Source: Minisyncoccota bacterium (GTDB taxonomy: Bacteria; Patescibacteriota; Minisyncoccia; Phycocordibacterales; UBA5272). Taken from it: a DNA stretch of 46,970 nt. Under the pieces are notes generated by a model. It searched no databases. It saw nothing but the letters and a program-made list of their open reading frames with translations, and was not told where the DNA came from. Positions 9,001-30,268 of the stretch are shown piece after piece; positions within the stretch are counted from its first letter, which is position 1, and every line of letters starts with the position of its first letter. The stretch is from positions 1-46,970 of the forward strand of contig JAGOQU010000006.1 of assembly GCA_018063165.1 (NCBI GenBank), written 5' to 3'. Position numbers and translations under genes: made by a program.

Positions 9001-11375
9001 CTTCATCAATATTTACAATACTCGCAAATGGAAATATCGGTGCAGGTTTACATAATCCAACTAATTTATTTGATGTAAATGGAGTACTTGGTATCAAGCA
9101 ACCAGGAGGAACTTCTGGTGTTAATGAACTGACTATTTCTCATAATGGACATCAAGCTGAATTTATTAATTCTGATCTTGCTTCGTCGACAACTAAAGAA
9201 AACTTTGTTTTTACAGGTCCAAGAACCGGAGGAGGAACTGTTCGTATGGGATTTGATTCTGCTGGTCAAATCTTTTCTGATTATAGCTCTATTCGATTTA
9301 ACACAAGTGCAGGTCAGGTGGCTGCGGTTGTAAATGGAGGATGGGAAACAAGAGATTCTTATCAGTTCTTGTGGTCATCAGATCCAAATCCTGCAGGTCC
9401 TGCTGATGCAGGTCTCGGAAGATTCGCTACTAGTACAGTCAAGGTAACCAATGGCTCAGTAGGTTGGGGGAATCTCATTGCTGGAAATATAGGAATAGGA
9501 ACAACAACATCCTTAGCTACTCTAACAGTTGTAGGCACTTCAACTAAGGACAGTATATTTACTGTTGCTTCATCAACAGGTGAGTCACTTTTTTCTATTC
9601 TTTCAAATGAAAACATAGGAGTAGGAACATCCACTCCTCTTGCTAGAGTAGGAATCGCTGGAAAAAAATATGGAGAAACATTATTAGATCTTAGTACAAC
9701 CTTCGGAGGAACTATTGGTTTAAATATTTCACCAACTGGTATAGGTGTTCTTACTAGAGGTATCAATGTTAACGCTTCTAGTGTCGGTATTTATTCTACC
9801 GCTTCAGATACAAATGGAACAGGTATATATGGTGGTGGATATGGATTATCTGCAATAGGTGTCAAAGGATCTACTGGTGGAGGTGGTGTTGGTGTATTTG
9901 CGAAAGCAGATTCTATTGGTGGATATGCCATAAAAGCAGATGGAACTACTGGTGCTGACATTATGCTTTTACAGTCAGAAGGTATTGATAAATTTATAAT
10001 AATGAATAACGGAAATGTTGGTATAGGAACTTCAACACCTCAATATTTATTAGATGTTAATGGTGATACGAGAATCAAAGGTGAGCTTAAAATTTCTTCA
10101 ACATTAAATAATTTTACTGGTGGAATTGGTGTTGATGGAACTGGAACACTTTTACTTAATAGTACAAACGTTGCTGGAGTAAATGTATATGGTAAATTAG
10201 CACCTTCAATTAATAATTGGGAACTGGGAGATGCAACACGTAGATGGGACGGATATTTTACAAATATTAATAGTTCTGCTACTTCAACATTTTTTGGAAA
10301 TGTTGGTATAGGAACAATATCTCCTTCTTCAAAACTTACCATATACAGCACAACAACAAGTTCTGATATAGATATACTACAAATACTTTCAGATGTTGGA
10401 GGTGCTGGAAATCCAATTTTTAGAATTGATTCTGATGGTGATATATTCACAGATGGTGGTACCACAATTGGTAATCCGGCTGACGTTGCAGAGAATTACT
10501 CAAGTATAGAGATAATATCTCCAGGTACAATAGTCACACTCGCAACAACAACAGTAGAATGGAATCTTGCAGAAAATAACTATAGTTCTACTACATACAA
10601 CATATCACAAGTACGTATTGCTCATCCAGAAGACAAAGCTTTTGGAATAGTATCTACTAGACCAGGTATATTACTTGGTGGCAATACTGCTAGCGGAACA
10701 CCTATAGCTTTGTCTGGGCGTGTACCTGTACGAGTGACAAATGAAAATGGAAAAGTGAAGCGTGGTGACTACATAACACTTTCAAAAACTATGCCAGGTT
10801 ATGCAATGAAAATGCTAGAACACGGAAGATCGATCGGTAGATCATTATCTGATATGGAAACAACAAGTGAAGCAACGGGAACAATAATTGTTTTTATTGA
10901 TAATTCTTATAATTTTATATCTGTTACAAAAACAGAAGACTTAGAACCGTTTATACATCCTTCTGCGACACTAACACAAATCGAAACAATAATAACAGAA
11001 GCCTTATCTAATGGAACAGAAGTGCTATCTTCACTTTTAGTCACCAAAGTATCAGCTATAGTTGCATATATAGATACATTATTTGTAAAAAATATACACG
11101 CAGAAAAAATAGATGCAACAATGTTTTGTATCGGTGAAGAAGGAAATAAGACATGTCTGACAAAAGAAAAAATTGATCAGCTTCTTTTGTTACAATCAGT
11201 ACAAAATGTTTCAGCAAGTACAAATAACGTAACAGATACGAATGTTTCATCAACCACAGAAAATGTAAATAATACAAGTAATATACCTACAGAAATACCA
11301 GAGGCAGCAACATATACAATTCAAAATGAAACAAGTAGTAGCACAGAAATAACATCAACAACAACTATACAATAA
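3045..11375 (+). CDS. Giant membrane-anchored repeat protein with collagen-like segment and Peptidase_G2-like domain
   Basis: 2776 residues from the first ATG; the same frame is open back to 2766, so the true N-terminus is probably the HTH ORF. A hydrophobic segment (about residues 3-19, FMSSILIISTFF) would be the membrane anchor. A collagen-like Gly-X-Y run of seven triplets (GPK GET GER GAI GPI GPT) is at about 146-166. Most of the protein is a long array of tail-fibre-like units whose signature is NVGIGTTTP followed by LxIASSTxNGT and FNVLANG. Near 2479-2620 a conserved segment (DVAENY..., GIVSTRPG, GRVPVRV, GDYIT) resembles the phage appendage autocleavage domain Peptidase_G2. A cysteine pair and a Ser/Thr-rich tail end the protein. 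Probably a trimeric surface adhesin; function is inference. Antisense ORFs inside it are shadows. Confidence 0.85.
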   Translation: MAGVAFMSSILIISTFFIETYDVASYATFSNSASADTSERLNTNSILTTISMKVYCGVNYFFTSPETWKCKTLTPPNTTVTVATTTQTTQAVALPIVATTSQQVLKEIVKYTPQVVAKNVTVKQINQPDQGKNNITYVTKYIPVPGPKGETGERGAIGPIGPTGSFSYVPVLSVATNNNGGTFSNQNLSSTILTNTILNGLSTFTGSLNSQDISATSLITSGSTTLATTTVTSLTTNSLESLLSSSTEIIATNVSVINSTTTNAFFSNLFGAGLNSCNTVGDKLIWNNGTFSCGVDAGAGGGITNLNGSIIAGQTFTTTSTSGLNLSITTATTTGVHTFAIGLASGYFIPNTASTTDWNNFFNTPTNYLTGGQNIILSGTSTIAVNPNSVFTSIGIGTTTPSLLFSIASSTGASIFGVTNDGILSLSNPVSGSKFSLNDNGSGVLVTKKNGVEIAGLNLEGFRVPVDLSIGWTQNSAATIAMDTAFSRLSANKIGIGNGTPGDFSGTLITSTLGIGTSTSGSAFTLASGQMSLQLGTAEAPTITPIGNASSGIFWTSPTNLSVSVDGAERFRVGSGGAIASTGGYAIGLSVSGADAWLNRISKGVFAIGSRGLGYDSTSDKNGTLIAGQISLGTTTPFAQFSIQGTYGSTTPLFSVASTTSSSFATSSLFTILANGNVGVGTSTPLSTLSVVGGTSDPFNVYTTSSSSVFHVANNGLVSIGTSADVTNKGEMLRFNIGSSGGSTGYLSFNRAHNTNASYQFGFNDGDGFGLKQVGDSAPFLKVSSTGTLNSNKLVSFGSSNGVVDSSVTIYNGFTGGTPTHLSLSNLETPAFSNTKIAFQSWYSPDTLAYETASIVGIKYTSSNFLPQYGLAFNIANNSTSTTEAMRISSNGNVGIGTTEPDSILSIASSTANGTSNLFSIASSSSIFNVLANGNVGIGIINPTTQLDLSGSMKIAGQATINGASGGIFGLTFNNGLSNYNINAPGYSIIGGVSFDASGLGNDIGNVRKISFTNGYIDASSGSNPSTVAGSYRFSILNNSGWTPALQVQGIASQNANLFQIDPYESSNGKYFNVSSSGNVGIGSTSPSSLLSVIASSTNYLSPFISFNSTTSPIFNILANGNIGIGTLLPQTPLHIYGDGSNGITLETVGGSMKLSNQGGGLFKIQSGVNGGLSLGSSGDTELYRYAPSTLKTTGDFIVDDRMSIGTNTLSSMISITGTSTRDLMSVTSSSSLPVFNILADGNIGIGTNNPEQKLSVIGNVAFTGGLGIGTSSPLSALNIYANQDDGIRLDDKTNNRTSYITNTAYGLGINSAGNGLQLLTGGQIRLTINDSGNIGIGTTTPENALEVIGNIGLTGSNGITFADGTNNPLSLYKLTTNTMTFNSRVYSNFVGTLVAPTFAYNSGSAGNGIYFPNNGSDLGVITNSTERLRIDMNGNVGIGTSTPISSLHLVAQNNSTPLMVASSSGKSMFSVGRDGTVLVGTDYANYPEVFHYGNGFLLAQGDIGFIGNGTHHLTNASTGNIGIQLFNGSQNIVPLTASYSGQNGLIGINNNHPNFSLDIKGTSTTSPFNVASSTGDSLFTILANGKIGVGTNNPLAFIHIEKNKNAINNMYITNSATGTSAYSQIVLGENPANAQSLTFTYANTGNGAWSSNTGVIEAGVNTTGGLVLSTTGNSPVKIYTNNTERVRVTSAGNIGIGTIAPTSLLTIASSTANGTSTLFSVATSSSVFNVLANGNIGIGITNPGSKLDIFGSLFVTGGGDIYAGGGNIQIAGGYTFRNLNDDLRLATQASKDIIFSTSASSEKMRIKDSGNVGIGTTTPNSILSIASSTANDTTNLFSIATSSSIFNVLANGNVGIGTSSPQTKLHVWGNNDGHNLARFGASSIYLDIHDNAGYGNPGIKTSTGVLDLSYVTIGGMGGTASPSLKVKSQIAGTLIQSWLDFSNNTLGVFTSSGNFGIGTTTPLSLLSLASSTANGTSTLFSVATSSSIFTILANGNIGAGLHNPTNLFDVNGVLGIKQPGGTSGVNELTISHNGHQAEFINSDLASSTTKENFVFTGPRTGGGTVRMGFDSAGQIFSDYSSIRFNTSAGQVAAVVNGGWETRDSYQFLWSSDPNPAGPADAGLGRFATSTVKVTNGSVGWGNLIAGNIGIGTTTSLATLTVVGTSTKDSIFTVASSTGESLFSILSNENIGVGTSTPLARVGIAGKKYGETLLDLSTTFGGTIGLNISPTGIGVLTRGINVNASSVGIYSTASDTNGTGIYGGGYGLSAIGVKGSTGGGGVGVFAKADSIGGYAIKADGTTGADIMLLQSEGIDKFIIMNNGNVGIGTSTPQYLLDVNGDTRIKGELKISSTLNNFTGGIGVDGTGTLLLNSTNVAGVNVYGKLAPSINNWELGDATRRWDGYFTNINSSATSTFFGNVGIGTISPSSKLTIYSTTTSSDIDILQILSDVGGAGNPIFRIDSDGDIFTDGGTTIGNPADVAENYSSIEIISPGTIVTLATTTVEWNLAENNYSSTTYNISQVRIAHPEDKAFGIVSTRPGILLGGNTASGTPIALSGRVPVRVTNENGKVKRGDYITLSKTMPGYAMKMLEHGRSIGRSLSDMETTSEATGTIIVFIDNSYNFISVTKTEDLEPFIHPSATLTQIETIITEALSNGTEVLSSLLVTKVSAIVAYIDTLFVKNIHAEKIDATMFCIGEEGNKTCLTKEKIDQLLLLQSVQNVSASTNNVTDTNVSSTTENVNNTSNIPTEIPEAATYTIQNETSSSTEITSTTTIQ
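8167..8232 (+). repeat. Intragenic near-identical repeat, copy 1
   Basis: About 66 nt encoding the ASSTANGTSTLFSVATSSS unit. It matches 8950-9015 with only about three mismatches, whereas other copies of the same peptide unit in this gene (for example near 5762 and 8515) use different codons. This points to a recent duplication or gene conversion of this block. Confidence 0.75.
8950..9015 (+). repeat. Intragenic near-identical repeat, copy 2
   Basis: Second copy of the unit at 8167-8232, 783 nt (261 codons) downstream in the same frame. Recombination between the two would delete or add 261 residues without breaking the frame. Confidence 0.75.
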
Positions 11376-19933: not shown

Positions 19934-21634
19934 TTATTTTTCAAAAACAAGTCTTTTGTTGGTGTATATTTTATAAAGCATGAACAATGTTAATAATAAA
20001 GTTATAACAATAGTAACCCATATTGGATATACATATCCTTTCGAAAGAGAGAGGTACAACATATAGTCCGTTAATGCTCCATACGTAAGCGCAAAAGCTG
20101 TAAAAAATAGACCAGACATACTTGTACTAATAGCTTCTGGGTCGTCAGTTTCTGTATTAGGAAATAACGCACCGAATACAAGACCTAATGTCACAATAAA
20201 AACAACAACAGATATAAAAAGAGCCATTGAATAGAATGTTTGTATACTAGATACCTGTAACACGATACTATTAATATAATTCATACATACACCAAGCAAA
20301 ACAAAAAATGAAACAAAAAATATATATTTACCAAAAAACACTTTTCTAAAATCAATAGGGGAACTTGAAAGTATCCACATAGTCTTCTTTTCTGTACTAA
20401 AAGATGGGAATACAAATCGTAACGTAAACGCACTAATAAAGTAAACAGCTATAATATATTGAAGTGATTGAAGTACGATACTTTTGTGACTTACGTCAGC
20501 ACCATGTTTTTGAATATTATATCCAAGAATATGATTTGCTGCGATTTGCATAGACCATATACTCAGTAGAAACAAAAACCACATAACTCCTTTTACATTT
20601 CTAACAAGAATTATAAATTCTTTTTTATATAAGGAAGACATAATACTGCCTGTAAAATAATATGTATGAGATGTATCTGAAATAGATTTTTTAGAAATAG
20701 AATTTGTTCCTTCTTGAAATTTTTGCCATAGTGGGTAAAATATTTTTGAAATATAAAACCATACATATACAGAAGATACTGCAGTAATTACTATAATTAG
20801 AAAAGCATAGAAAGCCTCGATAGTATTTCCTGTTTGAAAATTAAGAATAAGCATTGCAAGTTCATGCGTAGGTAGCATAAAAAAATACTGACTTATTGTC
20901 TCAACAGTAACTGTGTTAGTTATTTCATTTTCTTTAAATAAAATTAAAATATCAAGTGTGTGTAATTTTGACCAGACAAATAGAAAAACACCAGCTAGCA
21001 AAGAAGCAATGACAAAGAGTAAACCTTTAAAAGAAAATAGTATACTTTTTATTTTTTTAGAAACTATATAATACATAAAACTAACACCTACTACAAAAGA
21101 AAAAGTAACGGATTGTAAAAAAATAATACCAAAGAAAAAAGCAAATAAGATACCGATCACACTAAATAAACCTAAATGGTAAATAGTATTAAAAGCAAGT
21201 ATTGCAGGTAAAAAGATAACAAACATAGGTAATCCTGTTGCTTGTAACGTACGTATAAATAATACTTTTGGTAATACTGTATACGCAGGAGAACTCATAA
21301 GCCATGTATTATTAGTACCTCTAAAGAGTAAAAAAATAGAAGAAACAATAGTGCTACATATAATAATTACCGATAACACTAACAAAAAAACTTCATACAA
21401 AAAAAGTATCAATGCTAAACGTATCTCTTCTTCTGTTTCCATTCGTATAAAACGAAAACCTGAAACAAAAAATTCATATACACCTAATGCAATTATTCCA
21501 AAGACCATCATAAAAAGTAACAAAGTGATTATTTTTGCAACTGTTTTTGTCTTAAAATATTTAAGAATTTTACTTAATTCAAAACGAATAAAAAGTGATA
21601 ACATATTTTTGTATTCATTTAAAAAATTATGCAA
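19934..21634 (-). CDS. ABC transporter permease, exporter type
   Basis: A 566-residue polytopic membrane protein with roughly 12 hydrophobic segments (for example IITLLLFMMVFGIIALGVYE, FVIFLPAILAF, FVIASLLAGVFLFVW, IWVTIVITLLLTLFMLY). It overlaps the ATP-binding gene by 8 nt, so it is the membrane half of the same exporter. The long cytoplasmic N-terminus and 6+6 pattern match two-component ABC-2-like exporters; the substrate is unknown. It starts with MHNFLNEY; a second Met (KNMLSLFI) nearby could also serve. Confidence 0.85.
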   Translation of the reverse strand: MHNFLNEYKNMLSLFIRFELSKILKYFKTKTVAKIITLLLFMMVFGIIALGVYEFFVSGFRFIRMETEEEIRLALILFLYEVFLLVLSVIIICSTIVSSIFLLFRGTNNTWLMSSPAYTVLPKVLFIRTLQATGLPMFVIFLPAILAFNTIYHLGLFSVIGILFAFFFGIIFLQSVTFSFVVGVSFMYYIVSKKIKSILFSFKGLLFVIASLLAGVFLFVWSKLHTLDILILFKENEITNTVTVETISQYFFMLPTHELAMLILNFQTGNTIEAFYAFLIIVITAVSSVYVWFYISKIFYPLWQKFQEGTNSISKKSISDTSHTYYFTGSIMSSLYKKEFIILVRNVKGVMWFLFLLSIWSMQIAANHILGYNIQKHGADVSHKSIVLQSLQYIIAVYFISAFTLRFVFPSFSTEKKTMWILSSSPIDFRKVFFGKYIFFVSFFVLLGVCMNYINSIVLQVSSIQTFYSMALFISVVVFIVTLGLVFGALFPNTETDDPEAISTSMSGLFFTAFALTYGALTDYMLYLSLSKGYVYPIWVTIVITLLLTLFMLYKIYTNKRLVFEK

Positions 21635-22346
21635 GTTTTTGGTAAACAGCTTCTAGTGATGCATGCTTATCTAAGCCAGCTCTCTCTCTAAGTTCACTGA
21701 GAGTTCCTACAGCAACAAGGGTACCATTTTTAAGAATTCCTATTCTATGTGAAATTTCTTCAGCAACAGGAAGGGTATGGGTAACAAGAAGCACAGAGCA
21801 TCCTTTTGTTGCATAGTCGACAAATAATTTCTTTGCTATTTCAGCACCACTAGGATCAAGACCAACTATTGGTTCATCCACCAATAAAAGCTTTGGATCA
21901 TGCGACATCGCTGCTATGATGCTAAATTTTTGTTTATTACCACGTGAGTAATCTTCAAAATACTGTTTTTCTATTCCTGTAAGATCAAAAACATTAAGCC
22001 ACTTTGAAATAGTTTCTTTTCTTGTTTTTAAAGGTGTAGAAAATAGTGACTGTGTAAAATATAAAAATTCTTCTCCTGTCATATGTTGCCACAACGATGG
22101 TTCATCCGGAATATAACCAATACACGCTTTTGCTTGTTCTGGTTTTTTTGAAATATCAATACCATCTACAGTAATAGAACCAGAAGTAGCTTGTAAAAGA
22201 CCTAGTATACTTTTAATAATTGTCGTCTTACCTGAACTATTTGGTCCAATTAAAGAAAAAATTTCTCCTTTCTCAATAGAAAAGCTAACATTATCAACCG
22301 CTTTATTAGTGTTAAAATATTTTTTTAATGTATGTACAGTAAGCAT
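21627..22346 (-). CDS. ABC transporter ATP-binding protein
   Basis: A 239-residue single ABC ATPase. Walker A is GPNSSGKTT (about 34-42), the Q loop lies near YIPDEPSLW, the signature is the degenerate YSRGNKQKF in place of LSGGQ, Walker B is LLLVDEPIVGLDP, and the H loop is LLVTHTLP. The CcmA/NatA-like form and the 8-nt overlap with the following permease gene define a two-gene exporter. A -10 hexamer TATACT lies 9 nt before the ATG, which predicts a leaderless transcript. Confidence 0.93.
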   Translation of the reverse strand: MLTVHTLKKYFNTNKAVDNVSFSIEKGEIFSLIGPNSSGKTTIIKSILGLLQATSGSITVDGIDISKKPEQAKACIGYIPDEPSLWQHMTGEEFLYFTQSLFSTPLKTRKETISKWLNVFDLTGIEKQYFEDYSRGNKQKFSIIAAMSHDPKLLLVDEPIVGLDPSGAEIAKKLFVDYATKGCSVLLVTHTLPVAEEISHRIGILKNGTLVAVGTLSELRERAGLDKHASLEAVYQKLA

Positions 22347-22355
22347 ATGTATACA

Positions 22356-22361
22356 AGTATA
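22356..22361 (-). promoter_or_regulatory. -10 element of the ABC exporter operon, predicted leaderless
   Basis: TATACT on the minus strand, 9 nt before the ATG of the ATPase gene. No Shine-Dalgarno sequence fits in the gap. Confidence 0.55.
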
Positions 22362-22400
22362 CTAAGAGAAATACCATAAACCTAGGGATACGTATCATAT

Positions 22401-22432
22401 AAAAATACCACACGTGTATGTATGGTATTTTT
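22401..22432 (-). terminator. Intrinsic terminator after the slipin gene
   Basis: A 10-bp stem AAAAATACCA/TGGTATTTTT with a 12-nt loop, 25 nt beyond the slipin stop on the minus strand, followed by a T-rich run. Confidence 0.75.
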
Positions 22433-22457
22433 ATTGATATTTTTTAATTCTAAAAAA

Positions 22458-23198
22458 TTATTTCTTCATAAATCCTTCAAGAGCTTTCAACGCTTCAACA
22501 GGTACCATATACACAACAGTGTTTGATTGGTCTGATGACATATCATTAATTGATTGCAAAGTGCGCAAATGAAGAGCTCCTGGAGTAGAAGCAAGCATTG
22601 AAGCTGCTTGTGCAATATTTTGTGATGCCGCTAATTCTCCTTCTGAATTAATAATAACAGCACGTTTCTCTCTTTCTGCTTCAGCTTGTTTTCCTATGGT
22701 TCTTTCCATTTCTGGAGGAAGACTAACATCTTTTAATTCTACATTTTGAACTTTAAGACCCCACGCATCTGTTTCTTTATCAACAATTTCACGTATTCTA
22801 TCTGCTATTTTATCTCTACTTGAAAGAAGCTCATCGAGAGTTACTTCACCAACTATATTTCTCATTGTTGTTTGAGCGTATTGAGAAATAGCATATCTAA
22901 AATCTTCTACTTCTATAATAGCTTTTGGTGCATCACTCACTTTATAATAAATAACAGCGTTAACACGAACAGAGACATTGTCACGTGTAATAGCATTTTG
23001 ATCTGGCACATCAACAGCTTTTATTCTAATATCAACTTTTTGATATTCTTGAATAATAGGAATCACTATTCTCCAACCAGGTTCCATAACTGAAGTAAAT
23101 TTACCAAAAGTAAATTTAACACCACGTTGATATTGACTTATTTGGCGAATACTAATAAGTAAAACAAATAAAATTACTGGGAAAATTGTATAAAGCAT
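22458..23198 (-). CDS. SPFH/Band 7 protein, slipin (stomatin-like)
   Basis: A 246-residue membrane-associated SPFH protein. One N-terminal hydrophobic segment (about 2-18, LYTIFPVILFVLLISI) is followed by the Band 7 domain: YQRGVKFTFGKF, EPGWRIVIPIIQEYQKVDIR, the highly conserved TRDNVSVRVNAVIYYKV, and the coiled-coil-forming KQAEAEREKRAVIINSEGE. The C-terminus (LRTLQSINDMSSDQSNTVVYMVP) is the typical slipin oligomerisation end. Slipins form membrane rings that organise and regulate other membrane proteins, frequently with an NfeD-type protease. No NfeD partner is visible here. Confidence 0.94.
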   Translation of the reverse strand: MLYTIFPVILFVLLISIRQISQYQRGVKFTFGKFTSVMEPGWRIVIPIIQEYQKVDIRIKAVDVPDQNAITRDNVSVRVNAVIYYKVSDAPKAIIEVEDFRYAISQYAQTTMRNIVGEVTLDELLSSRDKIADRIREIVDKETDAWGLKVQNVELKDVSLPPEMERTIGKQAEAEREKRAVIINSEGELAASQNIAQAASMLASTPGALHLRTLQSINDMSSDQSNTVVYMVPVEALKALEGFMKK

Positions 23199-23270
23199 AT
23201 AATAGTATTTAATAAATAATGGGTACCTGTATACAAGTTTATACTAAAAAATATGTATGTACCAGTTTAT

Positions 23271-23825
23271 TTATACAGTAATTTTTTTTACTTCTACTGG
23301 ACGTATAACAATAAATCTTTTTTTCCAACCTTTTTGAAAATCTACAATAGAAATTTTTTTCTGTCCAACTTTTGCAGCAGGGTCATTATAATATATGAAT
23401 CCATTTTCAAAACCATCTAATACTACAAGATGTGGCACAGAACTTCGTGGATCAAATTTATAATGTACAGAAACAATAACAGGACCATCTGCTAAATATT
23501 TTTTTAATGTAGATAATGAGGCTTCTTTACCGAGAGACGACACATCATAACTTTTACCATCTAGATTATACTTTTTAGATAACGCAATTAAATCTTTATG
23601 TATCCATCCAGCTTTTTGATCATATGCACCATAAAGAATACCTGCTTTTAATAAGGTTTCAACTGATATAGTAGCAGTAGAGTAATAATCTATTACCATA
23701 GCAAGACTAGTAATACCACATCCAACTTTCTGCCAAGAAGTAGAATGTATATCACGAAATTGAGAATAGAAGGGGATAACAGGAGTATAGGAATAGTAGG
23801 GATCATATAATTCACTATGACAGGT
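23271..23825 (-). pseudogene. C39-like papain-fold peptidase lacking a recognisable start codon
   Basis: The open frame runs from just after a TAG (23826-23828) to the stop at 23271. The first in-frame ATG (23699) lies downstream of the catalytic cysteine, so a 142-codon call from that ATG is too short. Translating upstream gives IPFYSQFRDIHSTSWQKVGC then GITSLAMVIDYY, the classic peptidase C39-like N-terminal block; the Cys codon is 23718-23720. The catalytic His is in VPHLVVLDGF and the Asp/Asn region is YYNDPA. No ATG, GTG or TTG exists between the TAG and the Cys, and no signal peptide is recoverable. Either a non-standard start is used, a sequence error hides the 5' end, or the gene has lost its leader and is decaying. 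Confidence 0.72.
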
Positions 23826-23889
23826 CTAGTCACGGTTAGCAAGGAATCTTTTTATTAAGAATAATATATAACTATATACGTTTAGCTAT

Positions 23890-24729
23890 TTATTTTTGTA
23901 CCACTATCTTAGTTCCTATTTCTGCCCATTCATATAACTTTTTTGCATTTTCTGTAGAAAGATTAACACATCCATGTGACCACGGTTTACCAAAATGATC
24001 ATGCCAATATGTTCCATGAATAACAGCTCCATCTTTTGTAAAATATAAATTCCAAGGAACACCAGGTAAATCATAGATTTGTTCACTTACACCTTTTATA
24101 GGACCTTGCATGAACCTACTTGGTGTCATTTTAAATATACTAAAAGTTCCTTTAGGTGTTGGAGTAAATTCAAGACCTGTCGAGATCACTTCCTTCATAA
24201 AAATCACATCACCATCATACGCATACAACATTTCTTCTGAAATATCTATAGTAATAGTTTTTGTTGTAGTTGAAATAATATCAATCTCACTATTTTTATC
24301 TCCTTCATGTAAGAATAGCTTTACAAATTCTGAAGATACATACCAATCACTTGTTACTCTCTCTGGATATGCCAGCTCATTACTAAACAAAATCTTATAC
24401 CATTCTTTACCGTCTTTTGTTATATGTTCTGCAACTTTCAAAACAATACCATTTCTTAATTTAACAACGACTGGATATTCTAACCCTGGACCAGATCGTA
24501 CGTTTACACACTCACCACTAAAATCAAAAGCACAACCATTAATAACTTCTAGATATTCAAAAAGTTCATTTTTTGACGTTAAATTTGTTGTGGAAGCTGT
24601 ATCAGGTTTAGCTTCTAAAGAAACAGTATCATTTACATGCACGATTTTTTCTTTTGTGGAAAAAATATAGATCACGATAATTATACATACCATAGCAATA
24701 CTACAATATAGTATTATTTTTTTACTCAT
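23890..24729 (-). CDS. L,D-transpeptidase (YkuD) with SH3-like domain
   Basis: A 279-residue cell-wall enzyme. An N-terminal membrane segment (about 4-23, IILYCSIAMVCIIIVIYIF) anchors it outside the membrane. A bacterial SH3 domain at about 66-138 (CVNVRSGPGLEYPVVVKLRNG region) likely binds peptidoglycan. The YkuD catalytic domain follows (about 155-278), with the nucleophile motif HGTYWHDHFGKPWSHGCVNL: His, then SHGCVN with the catalytic Cys. It makes 3-3 or other L,D crosslinks or attaches proteins to the wall. A -10 TATAGT sits 8 nt before the ATG. Confidence 0.94.
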   Translation of the reverse strand: MSKKIILYCSIAMVCIIIVIYIFSTKEKIVHVNDTVSLEAKPDTASTTNLTSKNELFEYLEVINGCAFDFSGECVNVRSGPGLEYPVVVKLRNGIVLKVAEHITKDGKEWYKILFSNELAYPERVTSDWYVSSEFVKLFLHEGDKNSEIDIISTTTKTITIDISEEMLYAYDGDVIFMKEVISTGLEFTPTPKGTFSIFKMTPSRFMQGPIKGVSEQIYDLPGVPWNLYFTKDGAVIHGTYWHDHFGKPWSHGCVNLSTENAKKLYEWAEIGTKIVVQK

Positions 24730-24737
24730 AGACTCAT

Positions 24738-24743
24738 ACTATA
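24738..24743 (-). promoter_or_regulatory. -10 element of the L,D-transpeptidase gene, predicted leaderless
   Basis: TATAGT on the minus strand, 8 nt before the ATG, with no Shine-Dalgarno sequence between. Confidence 0.5.
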
Positions 24744-24933
24744 TCTATCTAATAATTACACAAGGAAACTTTTTGTTATATATTTTAAAATACATTAAAA
24801 ATTGGCATGAATATGTAAGGCTATATACTTTTCATGCTAGGGTTTATACACAAAATCACTTCTTGCAAAGACTTCTTTTTTTGTGTATGATTATATGTAT
24901 ATTTCCGGAAGGGGATATACATAAAAAAAATAT

Positions 24934-25005
24934 TCCGTGGTAGCTCAGCGGTAGAGCAGCTCGCTGTTAACGAGTTGGTCGTAGGTTCGATCCCTACCCA
25001 CGGAG
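24934..25005 (+). tRNA. tRNA-Asn (GTT)
   Basis: A complete cloverleaf. The acceptor stem TCCGTGG/CCACGGA is 7 bp with discriminator G; the D arm is TAGCTCAGCGGTAGAGCA; the anticodon loop is CTGTTAA with anticodon GTT between stems GCTCG/CGAGT; the T arm is GTAGG-TTCGATC-CCTAC. The 3' CCA is not encoded. A terminator follows at once. Confidence 0.96.
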
Positions 25006-25018
25006 CTAATAAAATCTT

Positions 25019-25046
25019 AATCCCTCGTTTGAGGGATTTTGATTTT
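25019..25046 (+). terminator. Terminator after tRNA-Asn
   Basis: Stem AATCCCTC/GAGGGATT with a GTTT loop followed by TTGATTTTTT, 13 nt after the tRNA. Confidence 0.85.
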
Positions 25047-25061
25047 TTAGGCTCAGTGGGA

Positions 25062-25157
25062 ATAAACCAAACTGCTTTGGTTTATGTTAGGGATCGAATG
25101 CGGGTCGGAAAATCATCTGCGACGAAGGAGCTGATTTTGTGACCGATCCCTACCAAC
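25062..25157 (+). ncRNA. Structured non-coding segment with tRNA T-arm-like inverted repeats
   Basis: A perfect 10-bp hairpin (ATAAACCAAA-CTGC-TTTGGTTTAT, 25062-25085) is followed by a longer imperfect one. Its outer arms are TAGGGATCG (25088-25096) and CGATCCCTA (25144-25152), and its inner arms GTCGGAAAATCA and TGATTTTGTGAC. The left arm TAGGGATCGAA is an 11-nt reverse complement of the neighbouring tRNA's T arm; the right arm repeats it directly. Expression, function and family are unknown; a decayed tRNA-derived repeat is equally possible. Confidence 0.4.
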
Positions 25158-25211
25158 CTAATTTTTAAAAATTTTACATATTTAGTACTATCTGATATCG
25201 TTATAGAATAT

Positions 25212-25613
25212 ATGGACAACTGTATTTTCTGCAAAATAGCAAAAGGAGAAGAAAAGTGTTGGAAAGTTTTTGAGAATGATAATGTGGTAGCTTTTTTTGA
25301 TTATAATCCAGTAAATGAATATCATACACTCGTTATACCAAAGCAACATTATAAGGATATTTTTAATACTCCTAAAGAAGAACTTCAACATATAATCTCA
25401 GCAATTAAAGAAATAGTTACAATATACAGAGAAAAACTTGGAATAAATAATATTCAAATTATTAATAGCTCAGGAGAAGAAGCACAGCAAGATGTATTCC
25501 ATATTCATTTTCATATAGTCCCTAGAAAAATTGGAGACGGTCAAGATATTAAATGGAAACCAAAAGAAGCTATTAGAAAAGAATTTGATGTTCTGTTAAC
25601 TAAAATATACTAA
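25212..25613 (+). CDS. HIT family nucleotide hydrolase
   Basis: A 133-residue histidine-triad protein of HinT type. The N-terminal zinc-like cysteine pair is CIFCKIAKGE (about 4-13), the nucleotide-contact segment is HTLVIPKQHYKD, and the catalytic triad is HIHFHIVPR (about 107-115), with GEEAQQDVFH just before it. HinT-like enzymes hydrolyse AMP-lysine and other nucleoside phosphoramidates. Length matches the family. A -10-like TATAGA immediately precedes the ATG with no Shine-Dalgarno sequence, in contrast to the cassette genes that follow. Confidence 0.94.
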   Translation: MDNCIFCKIAKGEEKCWKVFENDNVVAFFDYNPVNEYHTLVIPKQHYKDIFNTPKEELQHIISAIKEIVTIYREKLGINNIQIINSSGEEAQQDVFHIHFHIVPRKIGDGQDIKWKPKEAIRKEFDVLLTKIY

Positions 25614-25624
25614 CTATATCTTTT

Positions 25625-25693
25625 ACTTACCATATAGAGATATTTTCATACTTCCTCCAATCAAAGGTTCTGAACTTGGGTACCAGTTGGAGC
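25625..25693 (+). repeat. Cassette-boundary repeat R1
   Basis: First of four direct repeats. Shared blocks are TTTTCATACTT, CCAATCAAA, TTCTGAACTT and TACCAGTTGGAGC. It contains the near-palindrome GTTC-T-GAAC and the outer inverted pair CTCCAA...TTGGAG. Its end overlaps the -35 of the first cassette gene. Confidence 0.85.
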
Positions 25694-25715
25694 AAACCGA
25701 CAAAACTGGTATATA
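25687..25715 (+). promoter_or_regulatory. Putative promoter of the first cassette gene
   Basis: TTGGAG at 25687-25692, a 17-nt spacer, then TATATA at 25710-25715. The -10 lies inside a 15-bp hairpin (25700-25714 pairing with 25718-25732), a layout that could also be an operator. Confidence 0.45.
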
Positions 25716-25732
25716 TGATATACTAGTTTTGT
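25700..25732 (+). repeat. 15-bp inverted repeat directly after R1
   Basis: ACAAAACTGGTATAT pairs with ATATACTAGTTTTGT around an ATG loop, with one G:T pair. A strong hairpin also follows R2 and R3 at the same relative place but with unrelated sequence. Confidence 0.7.
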
Positions 25733-25757
25733 TCATTTCAATTCAGGAGTTCAAAAA

Positions 25758-26033
25758 ATGTTGCAACTTATTGTAATTCTTGCCGTCATCTTTGCTGGGT
25801 GGTTTATCGCTTCAACTTTCTCTACGGCCGTTCTGGTCATTCTGACAGTGCTAGGCATCAGCGCTTGGGTTTTGGTCAAGAAAGATGTCAAGGGGCGAGG
25901 TTTGGATGGAATTCTTCACATGCTCATCCTGGTTACCACATCCATCTTCTTTGTTTCAGTCTGGGTATCTTGGTACCTTGTGAACAACTTTGAGTTCGCT
26001 GGTCAGTTTCTTCGCACCTACATTTTGCGCTGA
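25758..26033 (+). CDS. Small membrane protein of the first cassette, unknown function
   Basis: A 91-residue very hydrophobic protein with three predicted membrane segments: about 2-17 (LQLIVILAVIFAGWFI), 23-40 (AVLVILTVLGISAWVLV) and 53-73 (ILHMLILVTTSIFFVSVWVSW). A short charged loop (KKDVKGRG) lies between the second and third. No family recognised. A good Shine-Dalgarno AGGAG (25745-25749) sits 8 nt before the ATG, and the gene is visibly richer in G+C than its surroundings, so it looks acquired. It ends in TGA and is followed by its own terminator and repeat R2. Confidence 0.7.
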   Translation: MLQLIVILAVIFAGWFIASTFSTAVLVILTVLGISAWVLVKKDVKGRGLDGILHMLILVTTSIFFVSVWVSWYLVNNFEFAGQFLRTYILR

Positions 26034-26043
26034 ACAAACTCAA

Positions 26044-26096
26044 TCCACCCCTTCGCAGAAAATCCACTCTGTCTTATTGGGGTGGTTTTCTTTTAT
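26044..26096 (+). terminator. Terminator of cassette 1
   Basis: CCACCCC (26045-26051) pairs with GGGGTGG (26079-26085) around a loop that itself contains CAGA/TCTG, followed by TTTTCTTTTA. The same GGTGG-TTTTCTTTT design ends the other two cassettes. Confidence 0.8.
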
Positions 26097-26160
26097 ATAA
26101 TCACCATATTTTCATACTTTTTCCAATCAAATATTCTGAACTTGTTTACCAGTTGGAGCC
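26097..26160 (+). repeat. Cassette-boundary repeat R2
   Basis: Second copy, beginning right after the terminator of cassette 1. It keeps TTTTCATACTT, CCAATCAAA, TTCTGAACTT and TACCAGTTGGAGC. The hairpin TGAAAAGCAC/GTGCTTTTCA (26163-26194) follows immediately. Confidence 0.85.
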
Positions 26161-26224
26161 CTTGAAAAGCACTTTTTAGATAAGGTGCTTTTCATTTACC
26201 TAGTTAGGGTTCAGAACTCACTTC

Positions 26225-26253
26225 TTGCCTAACACTGAATTTTATTGTAGTGT
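26225..26253 (+). promoter_or_regulatory. Putative promoter of the second cassette gene
   Basis: TTGCCT (26225-26230), 17-nt spacer ending in TTTTATTG, then TAGTGT (26248-26253). The third cassette has the same arrangement (TTGACA, 17 nt ending ATATTG, TAGTAT). Predicted leader is about 44 nt with SD-like AAAGGAA. Confidence 0.5.
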
Positions 26254-26303
26254 TTGTTTTGTCAAGTTACATTTCCCATTAACTCTCAAGAAAGGAATCC
26301 TAC

Positions 26304-26606
26304 GTGGACCATCAATTGAAACTTCTAAAAGACGCGGGGCTGCCCGCTCCTCAAAATCTACTCAGCAAGAACATCAAACTTGAGATTGATATTGGTGAAG
26401 TGTGGACGACAATCATCTCAGTATCCACAATCGCCAATGACGATGGCTATCCTGAGCTTGGCGTTGCTTCTGCGCTTTTCAGAGGCGATACCGTCGTAAG
26501 TATTCAAGTTCGTGAAGGAGGAGAGTTCTTTTGTCGATATAAGTACATGTCAAACAGAGGAGAGCAACAATCAGGTACGTACCCCTGCAAGATGACACTC
26601 CTCTGA
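26304..26606 (+). CDS. Small soluble protein of the second cassette, unknown function
   Basis: A 100-residue soluble protein starting with GTG, supported by the Shine-Dalgarno AAAGGAA (26291-26297) about 6 nt upstream. Beta-rich pattern (IKLEIDIGEVWTTIISVSTI, TVVSIQVREGGEFFCRYKY) with two cysteines (about residues 78 and 95). No family recognised. It ends in TGA and is followed by the terminator of cassette 2 and repeat R3. Codon choice and G+C content again differ from the chromosome around it. Confidence 0.65.
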   Translation: MDHQLKLLKDAGLPAPQNLLSKNIKLEIDIGEVWTTIISVSTIANDDGYPELGVASALFRGDTVVSIQVREGGEFFCRYKYMSNRGEQQSGTYPCKMTLL

Positions 26607-26631
26607 AGAAACTTTAGCTGATACACAACCC

Positions 26632-26670
26632 CCACCGAAAGCCACCGCGCGTTCGGTGGTCTTTCTTTTA
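26632..26670 (+). terminator. Terminator of cassette 2
   Basis: CCACCGAA (26632-26639) pairs with TTCGGTGG (26652-26659), followed by TCTTTCTTTTA. The CCACCGAAAGCCA 5' half is shared with the cassette 3 terminator. Confidence 0.85.
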
Positions 26671-26735
26671 TACACCCACCACATTTCCATACTTCACCCA
26701 AACAAATGTTCTGAACTTATGTACCAGTTGAAGCC
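26670..26735 (+). repeat. Cassette-boundary repeat R3
   Basis: Third copy: TTTCCATACTT, CCAAACAAA, TTCTGAACTT, TACCAGTTGAAGCC. A long hairpin (26733-26773) follows immediately. Confidence 0.83.
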
Positions 26736-26971
26736 AAATGAAACACACCCTTACGGGGTGTTTTTCATTTGGCATAGTGGAGAAAGTGACCTGCGTCACT
26801 TTCGTGTAGGCGACTAGTAAGTCGTACCGAGAGGAGATCGAATAGGCGAATTAGCAAATTCGGTTCTCGGAACTAGAGGAGTCTCCTGTTTTTGAATCAG
26901 CAGATTCACGTCTTGGACGAAATTAAATCTTAAACGAGACGAGGTAACTGATCCTGAAACTAGCAAGTTCA
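26733..26971 (+). ncRNA. Highly structured non-coding region with repeated AGYA-loop hairpins
   Basis: No coding frame. It begins with the stem GCCAAATGAAA.../...TTTCATTTGGC (26733-26773) and GAAAGTGAC-CTGC-GTCACTTTC (26782-26803). Four small hairpins share an AGYA loop: CGACT-AGTA-AGTCG (26811-26824), CGAATT-AGCA-AATTCG (26847-26862), TGAATC-AGCA-GATTCA (26893-26908), TGAAACT-AGCA-AGTTCA (26955-26971, one bulge). CCGAGA/TCTCGG encloses the second one, and AGGAG-T-CTCCT and CGTC-TTG-GACG lie between. A promoter for the next ORF lies downstream, so this is not simply that ORF's leader. It does not match an RNA family I can name. Confidence 0.55.
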
Positions 26972-26997
26972 CATCTTTAACTTACCCACGAGTTATT

Positions 26998-27026
26998 TTG
27001 ACAATATTAATATTATATTGTAGTAT
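26998..27026 (+). promoter_or_regulatory. Sigma70-type promoter of the third cassette gene
   Basis: Perfect -35 TTGACA (26998-27003), 17-nt A+T spacer, -10 TAGTAT (27021-27026). Predicted start near 27033, giving a leader of about 22 nt that contains AGGAG (27044-27048). Confidence 0.7.
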
Positions 27027-27054
27027 CTCCTTATCGTTCATTTAGGAGCTTGTT

Positions 27055-27405
27055 ATGAAACCAATACTTGTATTTAGCCAAATGGTGATGCAATCCAATA
27101 CATTTGTCAGATTTGCTTGTGACAACGTCCCAAATATTCTGATTGGTGATACTTTTTTATTACCACTAATGACAACAAAGGAAGCTGCTGAGTTTGGCTT
27201 TGCAACTTTAAAAAAACGACATTGGCAGGGCGGACAGTTAGTCCTCTCATGCGCAGTTAGTGAAGCTCTTCTTAAATATTTAGTTAAAATAGCAACTAAA
27301 GCAGAAGGCCACCATTTTATTTTTAATTTACCAGACCAAGACTGGTTACAACAACACGAAGATACTTCAACTGACTTCATTGAAGATAGAAGATATATGT
27401 TTTAA
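27055..27405 (+). CDS. Soluble protein of the third cassette, unknown function
   Basis: A 116-residue soluble protein with no membrane segment or recognised motif. The sequence mixes short hydrophobic strands (PILVFSQMVMQS, GDTFLLPLMTT) with helical stretches (TKEAAEFGFATLKKR, AVSEALLKYLVKIATKAE) and an acidic C-terminus (QQHEDTSTDFIEDRRYMF). AGGAG lies 6 nt before the ATG. It has its own promoter and terminator and sits between repeats R3 and R4. No toxin-antitoxin or defence domain is visible. Confidence 0.65.
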   Translation: MKPILVFSQMVMQSNTFVRFACDNVPNILIGDTFLLPLMTTKEAAEFGFATLKKRHWQGGQLVLSCAVSEALLKYLVKIATKAEGHHFIFNLPDQDWLQQHEDTSTDFIEDRRYMF

Positions 27406-27413
27406 CAATGATA

Positions 27414-27450
27414 CCACCGAAAGCCATTGCTTGTCGGTGGTTTTCTTTTC
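27414..27450 (+). terminator. Terminator of cassette 3
   Basis: CCACCGA (27414-27420) pairs with TCGGTGG (27434-27440), followed by TTTTCTTTTC, the same design as cassette 2. Confidence 0.83.
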
Positions 27451-27517
27451 ATATACTCACTATATTTTCACACTTACTCAATCAAAAGTTTTGAACCTGT
27501 ATTACTAGAAATGCGGA
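27450..27517 (+). repeat. Cassette-boundary repeat R4, degenerate
   Basis: Fourth copy. The left half is conserved (TTTTCACACTT, CAATCAAA, TTTTGAACCT) but the right half (TATTACTAGAAATG) has diverged from TACCAGTTGGAGC. No hairpin follows and normal chromosomal genes resume, so this is the end of the array. Confidence 0.7.
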
Positions 27518-27562
27518 ATAAGAATCGTATCCCAATGTCAAAATAATTTAAATATATTTATT

Positions 27563-27814
27563 TTAACGATGCACACACCCAATCCAACAACAAGGTCTAC
27601 GTTTTCCTGCTACAAGATTTTCACACATTATTTTTATTCTACGATTTCTTGTTTCTAATTTTTTAGCAGATTCGATCCAACAAATCCATTCATTTCGCGC
27701 TAGTGGAGTAATACTATTCCAAATCTCAAACACCTGATGATGTGATAAAAATATTTCTTGTAAATCTGTTGGAGTTTTGTGTATGGTATTTGTAGTAATG
27801 TTTTTATTAGACAT
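27563..27814 (-). CDS. YdeI/OmpD-associated family protein (short)
   Basis: An 83-residue protein matching the C-terminal part of the YdeI / OmpD-associated (bacteriocin-protection) family: ARNEWICWIESAKKLETRNR, then a basic segment and the signature RRPCCWIGCVHR at the extreme C-terminus, where the family reads RPCCWPGC-x-HR. The family is named for a genetic link to antimicrobial peptide resistance in Salmonella; the biochemical function is unknown. The four cysteine/histidine residues at the end may bind metal. It is A+T-rich and has no Shine-Dalgarno sequence, unlike the adjacent cassette genes. Confidence 0.85.
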   Translation of the reverse strand: MSNKNITTNTIHKTPTDLQEIFLSHHQVFEIWNSITPLARNEWICWIESAKKLETRNRRIKIMCENLVAGKRRPCCWIGCVHR

Positions 27815-27883
27815 AGTATAAATTTTATCATAGTAAATCTACTATTTACATGTAAGTTTATTTTGTTACTTATGTTTAAAAAC

Positions 27884-27914
27884 TAAAATCACCCTCAAGT
27901 AGGGGATGATTTTA
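27884..27914 (-). terminator. Terminator after the small Gly-rich membrane protein
   Basis: Stem TAAAATCA-CCCT pairing with AGGG-(GA)-TGATTTTA, with a short loop and T-run on the minus-strand 3' side. It lies 27 nt beyond the stop of the 27941-28168 gene. Confidence 0.7.
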
Positions 27915-27940
27915 TAAAAACTTTATTAAGTTAGATCTAA

Positions 27941-28168
27941 CTACTGTGTTTTTGTTGTTGAAGATGTACTAGCTCTTTCCATATTAACTCTATTTCCATT
28001 TTCATACCCATTCATCATTTTTTGAGAACCTCTATGTCCACCATCTCTCATATCTCTACTATATCCTCCTTTAGAAGAACTCATAGCCACACCAACAATA
28101 CCACCAACAATACCTCCTATTAAACTTGCAAGAAGTACTGTGATAATCAATTTCTTATCTATGTGCAT
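27941..28168 (-). CDS. Small single-span membrane protein, unknown
   Basis: A 75-residue protein: short basic start (MHIDKK), one glycine-rich membrane helix (about 7-29, LIITVLLASLIGGIVGGIVGVAM) containing GxxxG-type packing motifs, then a polar, glycine- and arginine-rich tail ending in Ser/Thr. No family recognised. GxxxG helices usually pack against each other, so oligomerisation is plausible. It has its own terminator and no Shine-Dalgarno sequence. Confidence 0.65.
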   Translation of the reverse strand: MHIDKKLIITVLLASLIGGIVGGIVGVAMSSSKGGYSRDMRDGGHRGSQKMMNGYENGNRVNMERASTSSTTKTQ

Positions 28169-28241
28169 ATTTTTATTATTTATTTTATTTACATATACTA
28201 TTACGTAATAACGTTTAATTTTCTTTCAAAGTGAAACAAAA

Positions 28242-28274
28242 TAAAAAACTTCGCTATTAAAGCGAAGTTTTTTA
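28242..28274 (-). terminator. Terminator after the polytopic membrane protein
   Basis: A 14-bp stem TAAAAAACTTCGCT/AGCGAAGTTTTTTA with a 5-nt loop, 26 nt beyond the stop of the 28300-29022 gene. Confidence 0.88.
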
Positions 28275-28299
28275 TTAGACAAACAAACTACATTATTTT

Positions 28300-29022
28300 T
28301 TAGTGTGTATGAACTTCAAGCTTTCTATATAGGTGTGCAAAAGCGAAGAGAGAAACAGGAACAGTTAAGAAAAGTCCTACTCCAAATGCTAATAAACCAA
28401 GAATATTAAGAGCTAAAAGTATAATAAGGAAAGCAAAGAGTTTCCAGAAAACACAGCATGTTAACTTTCTTGTATGCTTGATGATTTCAAGTATAGACAT
28501 GTGTTCATTTTCAAGGAGAACATACGGATAAAACTTAAAACAAATCATAACATATACACCAGGAATGATAAGAAGCGCTGTTCCTATTAAAATAGCAAGT
28601 AACTGAGGTGTGACAGCATTAAAACCTAAAAACACCAAAGTCTGAAGTGTTGCTAAAAACGCACCAACAAAAGGGATAAAACATATAGACAAGAACAATA
28701 CGTATAGAATTGTTAGTGTTAAAAAACTTAAAACTACTTTTGGTGATTTTAATTTATTAAATAAATCTGCAAATGTAAAACTTTCGTTACGAACAATAAT
28801 GAGAGACATTGAAACAGCTGAAAGAGCTATAAGTAATGCAACTAACTGTTCTAATAGAGGAACACCTTTGAAAGCTAAAAAACCAAGTAGGTGAACACCG
28901 CTTACAGCACTCATAATTACTGAATAAATAATAAAAGAACAGATCAAAAACCATGCATGTTGTTTTGTCTTAGACCATGCGAAACCAAATATTTCTTCAA
29001 AATTAAAATGTTGTTTTGTCAT
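28300..29022 (-). CDS. Polytopic membrane protein (DUF975/GdpD-membrane-domain-like)
   Basis: A 240-residue integral membrane protein with about six hydrophobic helices in pairs. The start FNFEEIFGFAWSKTKQHAWF is typical of a family of small membrane proteins annotated as glycerophosphodiester-phosphodiesterase membrane domain or DUF975. The conserved middle segment is IPGVYVMICFKFYPYVLLEN and the helix after it starts SILEIIKHTRKLT. No catalytic domain is attached. An extended -10 (TGATATACT) lies 8 nt before the ATG. Confidence 0.75.
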   Translation of the reverse strand: MTKQHFNFEEIFGFAWSKTKQHAWFLICSFIIYSVIMSAVSGVHLLGFLAFKGVPLLEQLVALLIALSAVSMSLIIVRNESFTFADLFNKLKSPKVVLSFLTLTILYVLFLSICFIPFVGAFLATLQTLVFLGFNAVTPQLLAILIGTALLIIPGVYVMICFKFYPYVLLENEHMSILEIIKHTRKLTCCVFWKLFAFLIILLALNILGLLAFGVGLFLTVPVSLFAFAHLYRKLEVHTH

Positions 29023-29030
29023 ATGTTATG

Positions 29031-29039
29031 AGTATATCA
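29031..29039 (-). promoter_or_regulatory. Extended -10 of the polytopic membrane protein gene, predicted leaderless
   Basis: TGA-TATACT on the minus strand; the hexamer ends 8 nt before the ATG. Confidence 0.6.
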
Positions 29040-29167
29040 AACTATAGCATTTGAAAATTCTTTTTTTATAGAAAACTGTGTATAAGAATTGACTATACGC
29101 ATCTAACATATTTGGTATATACTAAAGAGTGTAGATTACATTTATTAGTTAGTTATAGAAAAACTAT

Positions 29168-29530
29168 ATGCATATAATAATTACTGGTGTTCATATGGAA
29201 ATGACTGATGCTATACGTACATACGCAACAGAAAAAATGAATACACTTGAAAAATTTGTACCAAAAGATGATACGAGCGCAAAACTAACTCTTGAACTTT
29301 CAAAAACAACAAATCACCATACTCATGGTGATGTGTTTCAAGCAGAAGCAGATCTTCGCATGAGGGGAAAGACAATAACACTTAGATCAACACAAGACGA
29401 TCTTTATAAAGCAATAGACATACTCAAGGACATGCTTTCTCGTGAACTTTCTTCTCACAAAGACAAAGAACAATCTCTGTTCAGAAGAGGTGCACACAGA
29501 GTAAAAAATATGTTTAAAAAAATAGTATAA
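29168..29530 (+). CDS. hpf: Ribosome hibernation-promoting factor (HPF/RaiA family, short form)
   Basis: A 120-residue protein of the HPF/YfiA family: MHIIITGVHMEMTDAIRTYA (first strand and helix), the KLTLELSKTT-x-HHTHGD-x-FQAEADLRMRGKTI strands that sit in the 30S mRNA channel, and the helix DDLYKAIDILKDMLSRELSSH. A basic tail (FRRGAHRVKNMFKK) follows, but there is no long-form dimerisation domain. It inactivates ribosomes in stationary phase. A -10 like TGGTATATACT ends about 45 nt upstream, so this gene has a leader, unlike many of its neighbours. The cyclophilin gene follows after 12 nt. Confidence 0.93.
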   Translation: MHIIITGVHMEMTDAIRTYATEKMNTLEKFVPKDDTSAKLTLELSKTTNHHTHGDVFQAEADLRMRGKTITLRSTQDDLYKAIDILKDMLSRELSSHKDKEQSLFRRGAHRVKNMFKKIV

Positions 29531-29542
29531 AAGTAAAAGCTC

Positions 29543-30268
29543 ATGGATAAAGAAACAAGAATAACACACATAACTATAGGTACCCTTATTATTATTTTGG
29601 TAGGTATTGCTTATTTTTTACAAAAAACTGAGGAAACCATTGATACAAAAACTCAAGAGGTAAAACCTGTAACAAAAAAAGTAGTACAAGCTCCTACAAA
29701 AATAATAACAAGTACAAGTACTGCCACAACCACACCAATAACTAATTCAAGTTCTACAACTATGCAACCATCACAAAAAATAACACGAGGAATTATCACT
29801 ACCAATAAAGGAGTTATAGAAATTTCTTTCTTAGACACAACACCAAACACAGTAAAAAATTTCGTAACATTAGCTCAGTCAAAGTTTTATGATGGTGTAC
29901 GTTTCCATCGTGTTATTAAAGATTTTATGATACAAGCAGGTGATCCATTTTCTAAAGATAAAGAGAAAATGTCTAGCTGGGGAACAGGAGGTCCAGGATA
30001 TACCTTTAATGATGAACTTACAGGAAAAGAACAGTATACGTTCGGAACTCTTGCTATGGCCAACGCAGGACCTAATACTAATGGATCTCAATTCTTTATA
30101 GTGACAGCAAATCCTTCAGTACCACTTCCTCCAAACTATACAGTGTTTGGAAAAGTTACAAGAGGCATGGATATTGCAACAAAAATTCAAGATGTTGCAA
30201 CCACAGGATCTCCAAGCGATAGACCACTAGAAGATATTGTTATTGAAAAAATAGAAGTAATGGAATAA
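29543..30268 (+). CDS. Membrane-anchored cyclophilin-type peptidyl-prolyl isomerase
   Basis: A 241-residue protein. An N-terminal membrane segment (about 9-27, ITIGTLIIILVGIAYFL) and a Thr/Ser-rich linker (about 45-80) place a cyclophilin domain (about 85-240) outside the membrane. The active-site motifs are FHRVIKDFMIQAGDP, GPGYTFNDEL, LAMANAGPNTNGSQFFI and NYTVFGKVTRGMD; the catalytic Arg of FHR and the Gln of GSQFF are present. It isomerises X-Pro bonds in secreted proteins, which would help fold the large surface proteins nearby (inference). Confidence 0.94.
   Translation: MDKETRITHITIGTLIIILVGIAYFLQKTEETIDTKTQEVKPVTKKVVQAPTKIITSTSTATTTPITNSSSTTMQPSQKITRGIITTNKGVIEISFLDTTPNTVKNFVTLAQSKFYDGVRFHRVIKDFMIQAGDPFSKDKEKMSSWGTGGPGYTFNDELTGKEQYTFGTLAMANAGPNTNGSQFFIVTANPSVPLPPNYTVFGKVTRGMDIATKIQDVATTGSPSDRPLEDIVIEKIEVME

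Follow-up and report, generated by a model that had tools for sequence, protein, structure and literature searches.

The window analysed here, a 46,970-nucleotide stretch of a Minisyncoccota bacterium genome (assembly GCA_018063165.1, contig JAGOQU010000006.1), carries four repeats of about 60 bp (R1-R4) that separate three small genes. We found that R1-R4 are very probably attR-type junctions of Patescibacteria elements that encode a large serine recombinase (LSR) and integrate at the 3' ends of tRNA genes, in this case tRNA-Asn. This identification follows from complete elements in related genomes, because joining the two ends of an element across a core equal to the tRNA terminus restores the LSR reading frame.

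The repeats were real, in register and at the positions given in the original prediction, which had been made from the letters alone, namely 25640, 26106, 26681 and 27462. R1-R3 were 76-82% identical to one another across 74 bp, and the profile E-values (1e-12 to 1e-14 for R1-R3 and 3e-4 for R4) excluded a chance origin. A search of the whole genome revealed these four as its only strong copies; the genome is 93% complete, so that absences from it, here and below, are not absolute. All four attR-type sites lie on the minus strand. R1 spans 25621-25693, with a P' half that encodes LQLVPKFRTFDWRKYENISIW and a core GGAGC at 25689-25693; R2 spans 26088-26159 (P' half encoding LQLVNKFRIFDWKKYENMVII, core GGAGC at 26155-26159), and R3 spans 26663-26734 (P' half encoding LQLVHKFRTFVWVKYGNVVGV, core GAAGC at 26730-26734). 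R4 (27444-27514) is a decayed site in which frame and core have been lost, and its decay was in the half facing away from the preceding gene, the same half that had been described as missing.

When read antisense to the cassette genes, almost every copy of the repeat encodes the peptide LPLxDxFRT[LFIV][DN]Wxx[IV]. In the FRTLDW codons, 66% of the single-base differences were synonymous, compared with 14-25% in the two other frames; the variation of the repeat is of the coding type and shows a protein-like codon pattern. In the related locus L078 (loci and genomes of relatives are given below by L and G numbers), the same peptide was found in frame, where it closed a 134-residue C-terminal LSR fragment located right behind a site. 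The homologues of this fragment were full LSRs, and its plasmid matches were annotated as 'recombinase family protein'. As judged from these sequence comparisons, the repeat is the C-terminus of an LSR, read antisense to the cassette genes. The suggested search of related candidate phyla radiation (CPR) genomes was productive: other Patescibacteria contained profile matches, many of which formed arrays (L077 had six copies, and L043, L078 and L079 had two or three each), and dozens of CPR genomes carried homologous sites next to unrelated genes. Searches for the site in viral contigs, phages and plasmids returned nothing useful.

Full-length integrated LSRs lacked the FRT-LDW tail, and their frames continued instead into the 3' end of a tRNA, read antisense (for example, NWLPGSDSNRRPIG). 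The tail was therefore predicted to lie at the opposite end of the element, and it was found there. Complete LSR elements were present in nine related genomes, where the target was usually tRNA-Asn and the repeat was at the other end. In particular, the LSR abutted tRNA-Asn with the site 9 kb away in G742 and in the genus mate G296, and LSR and site were on one strand about 8.5 kb apart in G766 and G800. A site was also found within 20 kb upstream, at E below 0.01, for 6 of 20 further LSR elements, each time on the predicted strand. The LSRs of G296 and G742 contained Resolvase, Recombinase and Zn_ribbon_recom domains, and such recombinases were found in other relatives as well.

When LSR end, core and distal site were joined, nine elements yielded one open frame running into FRT[LIV][DN]W or a close variant. 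The core measured 4-8 bp, was equal to the tRNA 3' terminus and was found automatically in G877 (8 bp), G766 (7 bp), G653 (5 bp), G850 (5 bp) and G645 (4 bp). Its sequence tracked the target, with GCTC(C) at tRNA-Asn, GCAG at tRNA-Glu and AGCGG at a tRNA whose anticodon is of the Asp type; in G296, where one lone cassette follows tRNA-Lys, the overlap was 8 bp long (ACACAGAA). Additionally, the distance between a GAAC motif and the core was 5 bp greater in the P' half of the distal site than in the half contributed by the tRNA. In serine integrases, attP and attB half-sites differ in the position of the zinc-ribbon motif, which lies 5 bp more distant from the core in attP (Rutherford et al. 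2013, PMC3783163), and by its spacing the GAAC shift appears to match this rule. Two other interpretations of the site were discarded. A crossover in the central GTTCTGAAC palindrome was considered because recombinase-side halves were homogeneous within arrays (within/between divergence ratio 0.24 vs 0.79); such a crossover would destroy the tRNA acceptor stem, and the tRNA-terminus core explains all junctions. The idea that FRT-LDW is the C-terminus of a target protein was abandoned once the joining of attL and attR had yielded the LSR frame.

The original prediction had named, as the plain alternative to a cassette system, a block acquired with the standard intergenic sequences of its donor; regulatory sequences, such as a leader RNA or a terminator module, fall under the same explanation. 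The position of the repeats between a terminator and a second hairpin would suit this explanation. However, the homologous sites flank unrelated genes, the coding signature lies on the strand opposite to the genes, and the repeat has no Rfam family, which also ruled it out as an Rfam RNA leader or riboswitch. We rejected this alternative as highly improbable because the site occurs beside unrelated genes in so many CPR genomes and terminates complete recombinase elements; the reconstruction of the elements from attL and attR refutes it.

We propose that, in the circular form of an element, the LSR gene would pass through attP, with P' encoding the last 20-30 residues or so (...LPLxDxFRTLDWxxIxxEL). 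Strand exchange would take place in the short core, which has the same sequence as the tRNA 3' terminus (GCTCC when read on the strand of the LSR gene). Upon integration, the tRNA would stay intact, the LSR would gain an antisense-tRNA tail, and P' and the core would end up at the far end. Repeated insertion behind one tRNA would then build a tandem array whose newest unit adjoins the tRNA. The units in the window, which each consist of a single gene followed at its 3' end by a P'-core site and contain no LSR, would represent recombinase-less cassettes, which we infer to be mobilised in trans by an LSR of the R1-R4 site family. Such LSR-less units may be decayed elements or users of a lax P arm. 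The decay of R4, the site farthest from the tRNA, fits this order, as it should if insertion takes place at the tRNA, and R4 is probably the distal end of the array and its oldest site.

As evident from the comparison of loci, tRNA-Asn was located at the start of the array in seven genomes (the window, L077, L079, L043, L113, L032 and G223, locus L235). In the window, tRNA-Asn(GTT) was identified with ARAGORN at 24934-25006 on the plus strand, and its 3' terminus GGAGC (25002-25006) is the anchoring, attB-derived core. The tRNA is followed by a HIT-family gene and then by R1. R1 and R4 had been proposed as the two ends of the array; R4 stands as the distal end, but R1 does not, as the array runs left to tRNA-Asn. 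The window array therefore probably consists of four units, the HIT gene segment being the first. This unit A (25007-25693, plus strand) contains the tRNA terminator, a tRNA-derived repeat, the HIT-domain protein gene (25212-25613, plus strand; Pfam PF01230, 5.6e-23) and R1 at its end. Its position between two GGAGC cores and the absence of the HIT gene from the tRNA-Asn loci of genus mates suggest that it is a cassette; its GC content is low and host-like (about 27%), which keeps this assignment at the level of a suggestion. The tRNA-derived repeat in unit A (25080-25160; GGGATCGAATGCGGGTCGG...GTGACCGATCCCTACC) is interspersed, with seven matches in the genome, and similar copies adjoin tRNAs and sites in L011 and L235.

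We also found that the tRNA-Asn locus of the genus, which adjoins DUF975, S30EA and cyclophilin genes, varied in content: it held the four-unit array in the window, an 8.9-kb complete LSR element in G296, two units in G223, units plus an LSR fragment in G740 and G1096, and no site in G1095 and G250. Further features were observed at tRNA-Asn loci. Relative to the shared flanking genes, the segment formed by tRNA-Asn and its island has opposite orientations in G296/G223 and in the window (L253 vs window 21627-30268); the G223 tRNA-Asn is interrupted by a group I intron (L235, 1547-1830; Rfam RF00028) beside two P' sites; and in L043/L256 copies of tRNA-Asn and of the end of a DUF975 gene lie on both sides of the array and enclose a C-terminal LSR fragment.

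The comparison of cassettes across genomes that had been recommended in the original prediction revealed one cassette of about 1.05 kb that was 94% identical in G587 and G609, which belong to two genera. On the site side, its flanks were unrelated exactly from the core outwards, and its other end met tRNA-Asn in G587. By a crude count, 34 of 43 genes were oriented towards the site (p = 2e-4). Recombinase-less units in tandem at one target, as in units A-D, had the same anatomy in L077, L079 and L043. Some of the cargo was related to defence or to toxin-antitoxin systems: in L032 (4199-5843), tRNA-Asn and a P' site enclose one unit with AbiV-like HEPN and SIR2-like genes, likely an anti-phage pair, and L078 carries a Panacea-domain antitoxin. 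L077 contains methyltransferase, MOSC, sigma-factor and ParB-like genes. The 9.4-kb complete element of G742 at tRNA-Asn (L255, 602-9975) contains restriction-modification genes, namely two C5 DNA methylases and a BpuJI-like restriction enzyme.

These data bear on the origin of the small units. One explanation is a decayed accretion island, in which successive full LSR elements at tRNA-Asn lost everything except the cargo beside attR, so that the units were never mobile single-gene cassettes. It is compatible with the site identity proposed here and differs only in where the small units came from. The LSR remnant retained right behind a site in L078, the decay of R4, the lack of an LSR of the R1-R4 site subfamily in the window's own genome and the complete 8.9-kb element at the same locus in G296 all speak for it. 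However, about 35 sites had P' and core intact with non-LSR sequence beginning exactly at the core, which random deletion would not yield, and the small cassette with its flank switch at the core in two genera and the regular gene-to-site layout also argue against decay. We regard such an island as a serious possibility, though not the favoured one.

Several observations weigh against reading R1-R4 as attR-type junctions of tRNA-targeting LSR elements. The window's genome contains no LSR of the R1-R4 site subfamily; it encodes two other LSRs, neither of which belongs to it, and the window array is an orphan for this reason. A recombinase with three domains at one end of the element was found in relatives and not in the window's own array. 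The left ends of the cassettes have no conserved P arm or common sequence, although an LSR attP should have two arms. Arrays L078, L191, L192, L194 and L195 showed no tRNA in the stretch examined, and the target in G800 was not recognisable as a tRNA. Moreover, the core of G742, G837, G800 and G296 was set by hand as the target terminus and was not the automatic longest match; the first automatic search had given chance matches of 4-6 bp for G742, G296 and G837 and no tRNA motif in G800.

The remaining units of the array are bounded by the core positions. The three open reading frames (ORFs) were confirmed, and their products, which had been called unrecognised, matched no family in protein family searches. 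Downstream of each gene comes a terminator hairpin, with a repeat behind it. Unit B (25694-26159) contains ORF1 (25758-26033, plus strand), which encodes a 91-residue membrane-like protein; unit C (26160-26734) contains ORF2 (26304-26606, plus strand; 100 residues), and unit D (26735-27514) contains ORF3 (27055-27405, plus strand; 116 residues). Homologues of ORF2 and ORF3 were sought in plasmids and none were found. The GC content of ORF1 and ORF2 was 44-46%, compared with about 31% in the surroundings. The terminators of one design, CCACC...GGTGG-TTTTCTTTT, that had been noticed in front of the repeats folded well below shuffles (z -4.1 to -4.5); those of units B and D lie at 26045-26095 and 27412-27450 on the plus strand. 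A second strong hairpin was found directly after R1, R2 and R3 (z -5.9 to -6.4 vs shuffles), at 25699-25733 in unit B (z -6.4), 26163-26194 in unit C and 26735-26771 in unit D, all on the plus strand. The hairpin opening unit B is a promoter/operator-like dyad (GACAAA...GTATATATGATATACT...TTTGT), and a close match occurs in genus mate G223 (L235, 655-690), also directly behind a site and with a different gene downstream. Elsewhere in the window, an ORF of 2776 residues lies at 3045-11375.

CPR bacteria are ultra-small, their genomes are tiny, and few routes by which they acquire genes have been described. A precise site, an anchor and an enzyme family can now be named for a widespread CPR cassette system, several arrays of which carry defence and toxin-antitoxin genes. 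The FRT-LDW P' site adjoining tRNA-Asn is a signature by which such cassettes can be found in existing data, and the small attP/attB pairs that occur naturally at the 3' ends of tRNAs may serve as integration tools. A tRNA-Asn LSR cassette system was not described in the literature searched, a search whose reach excluded bioRxiv and most subscription papers. More tentatively, the arrays could be a serine-recombinase counterpart of the integron, in which LSRs acting in trans collect single-gene cassettes with 3' P'-core sites behind tRNA-Asn. The LSR tail FRTLDWxxIxxEL would exist only in the circular form and be swapped for tRNA-derived codons on integration, a built-in switch that might decide in which direction recombination runs. 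Integron-like anatomy can arise on serine recombinases, and a recombinase whose C-terminus is swapped on integration offers an idea for direction control.

The original prediction had left open an integron-like or a different cassette system. A mobile, tandem arrangement of a gene plus a 3' recombination site is supported; the integron part is not. Clusters of attC sites lacking integron-integrases (CALINs) have no IntI, and known attC sites are longer than the R1-R4-type site, which is about 40 bp. Gene-plus-3'-site polarity and small tandem cassettes in an array-like layout would agree with attC-type cassettes moved by a tyrosine integron integrase. However, RNAalifold revealed no conserved secondary structure or base pair, and no R''/R' pairing, across 27 homologous sites, which disposes of attC-type folding. 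The CTCCAA/TTGGAG inverted pair proposed as a site feature was not conserved among relatives, and GTTGGAGC indeed fails to fit the attC R' consensus GTTRRRY, most homologues having no GTT box at all. Matches to the integron integrase (IntI) profile TIGR02249 in the window's genome were only below the cut-off, and the site belongs to a serine recombinase gene, of which it forms the 3' end. An integron or CALIN origin is accordingly extremely unlikely. The arrays share with integrons a gene plus 3' site, a polar order from a fixed anchor and small cargo that includes defence and toxin-antitoxin genes; they differ in using a serine rather than a tyrosine recombinase, in lacking a folded attC and in having tRNA-Asn in place of attI.

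By membership, and as far as sequence alone can tell, the arrays belong to a family of tRNA-targeted LSR elements with accretion of the cis-mobilizable element (CIME) type, and excision and transfer in trans would be expected. In the accretion of CIMEs with integrative and conjugative or integrative and mobilizable elements, recombinase-less, att-bounded units pile up in tandem at one tRNA, as they do here; the units described here differ in being about 0.5-2.4 kb long, mostly of one gene, polarised from gene to site and found in CPR hosts. Staphylococcal cassette chromosome (SCC) islands, in which Ccr serine recombinases target the 3' end of rlmH and tandem elements occur with and without ccr, appear to be the nearest well-known parallel. 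Both systems use serine recombinases, insert at the 3' end of a gene that is left intact and form tandem elements with and without a recombinase. In contrast to SCC, the target here is a tRNA, the cassettes are an order of magnitude smaller, and the site overlaps the end of the recombinase gene; similarity of the LSRs to CcrA/B/C was weak (NCBIfam 50-77 bits vs cut-offs of 700-900), which together with the tRNA targets places them outside SCC. Compared with LSR attachment systems (PMC3783163), the Resolvase, Recombinase and zinc-ribbon domains, the short core, the P and B half-sites and the 5-bp motif shift were alike. Unlike in those systems, attP here forms part of the LSR gene at its 3' end, so that codons derived from the tRNA take the place of the LSR C-terminus upon integration; the elements target the 3' ends of tRNAs, and the cassette site lacks conservation on one side. 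This system is unusual in the size of its units, in the overlap of attP with the end of the recombinase gene and in the replacement of the recombinase C-terminus to which this overlap leads when an element integrates.

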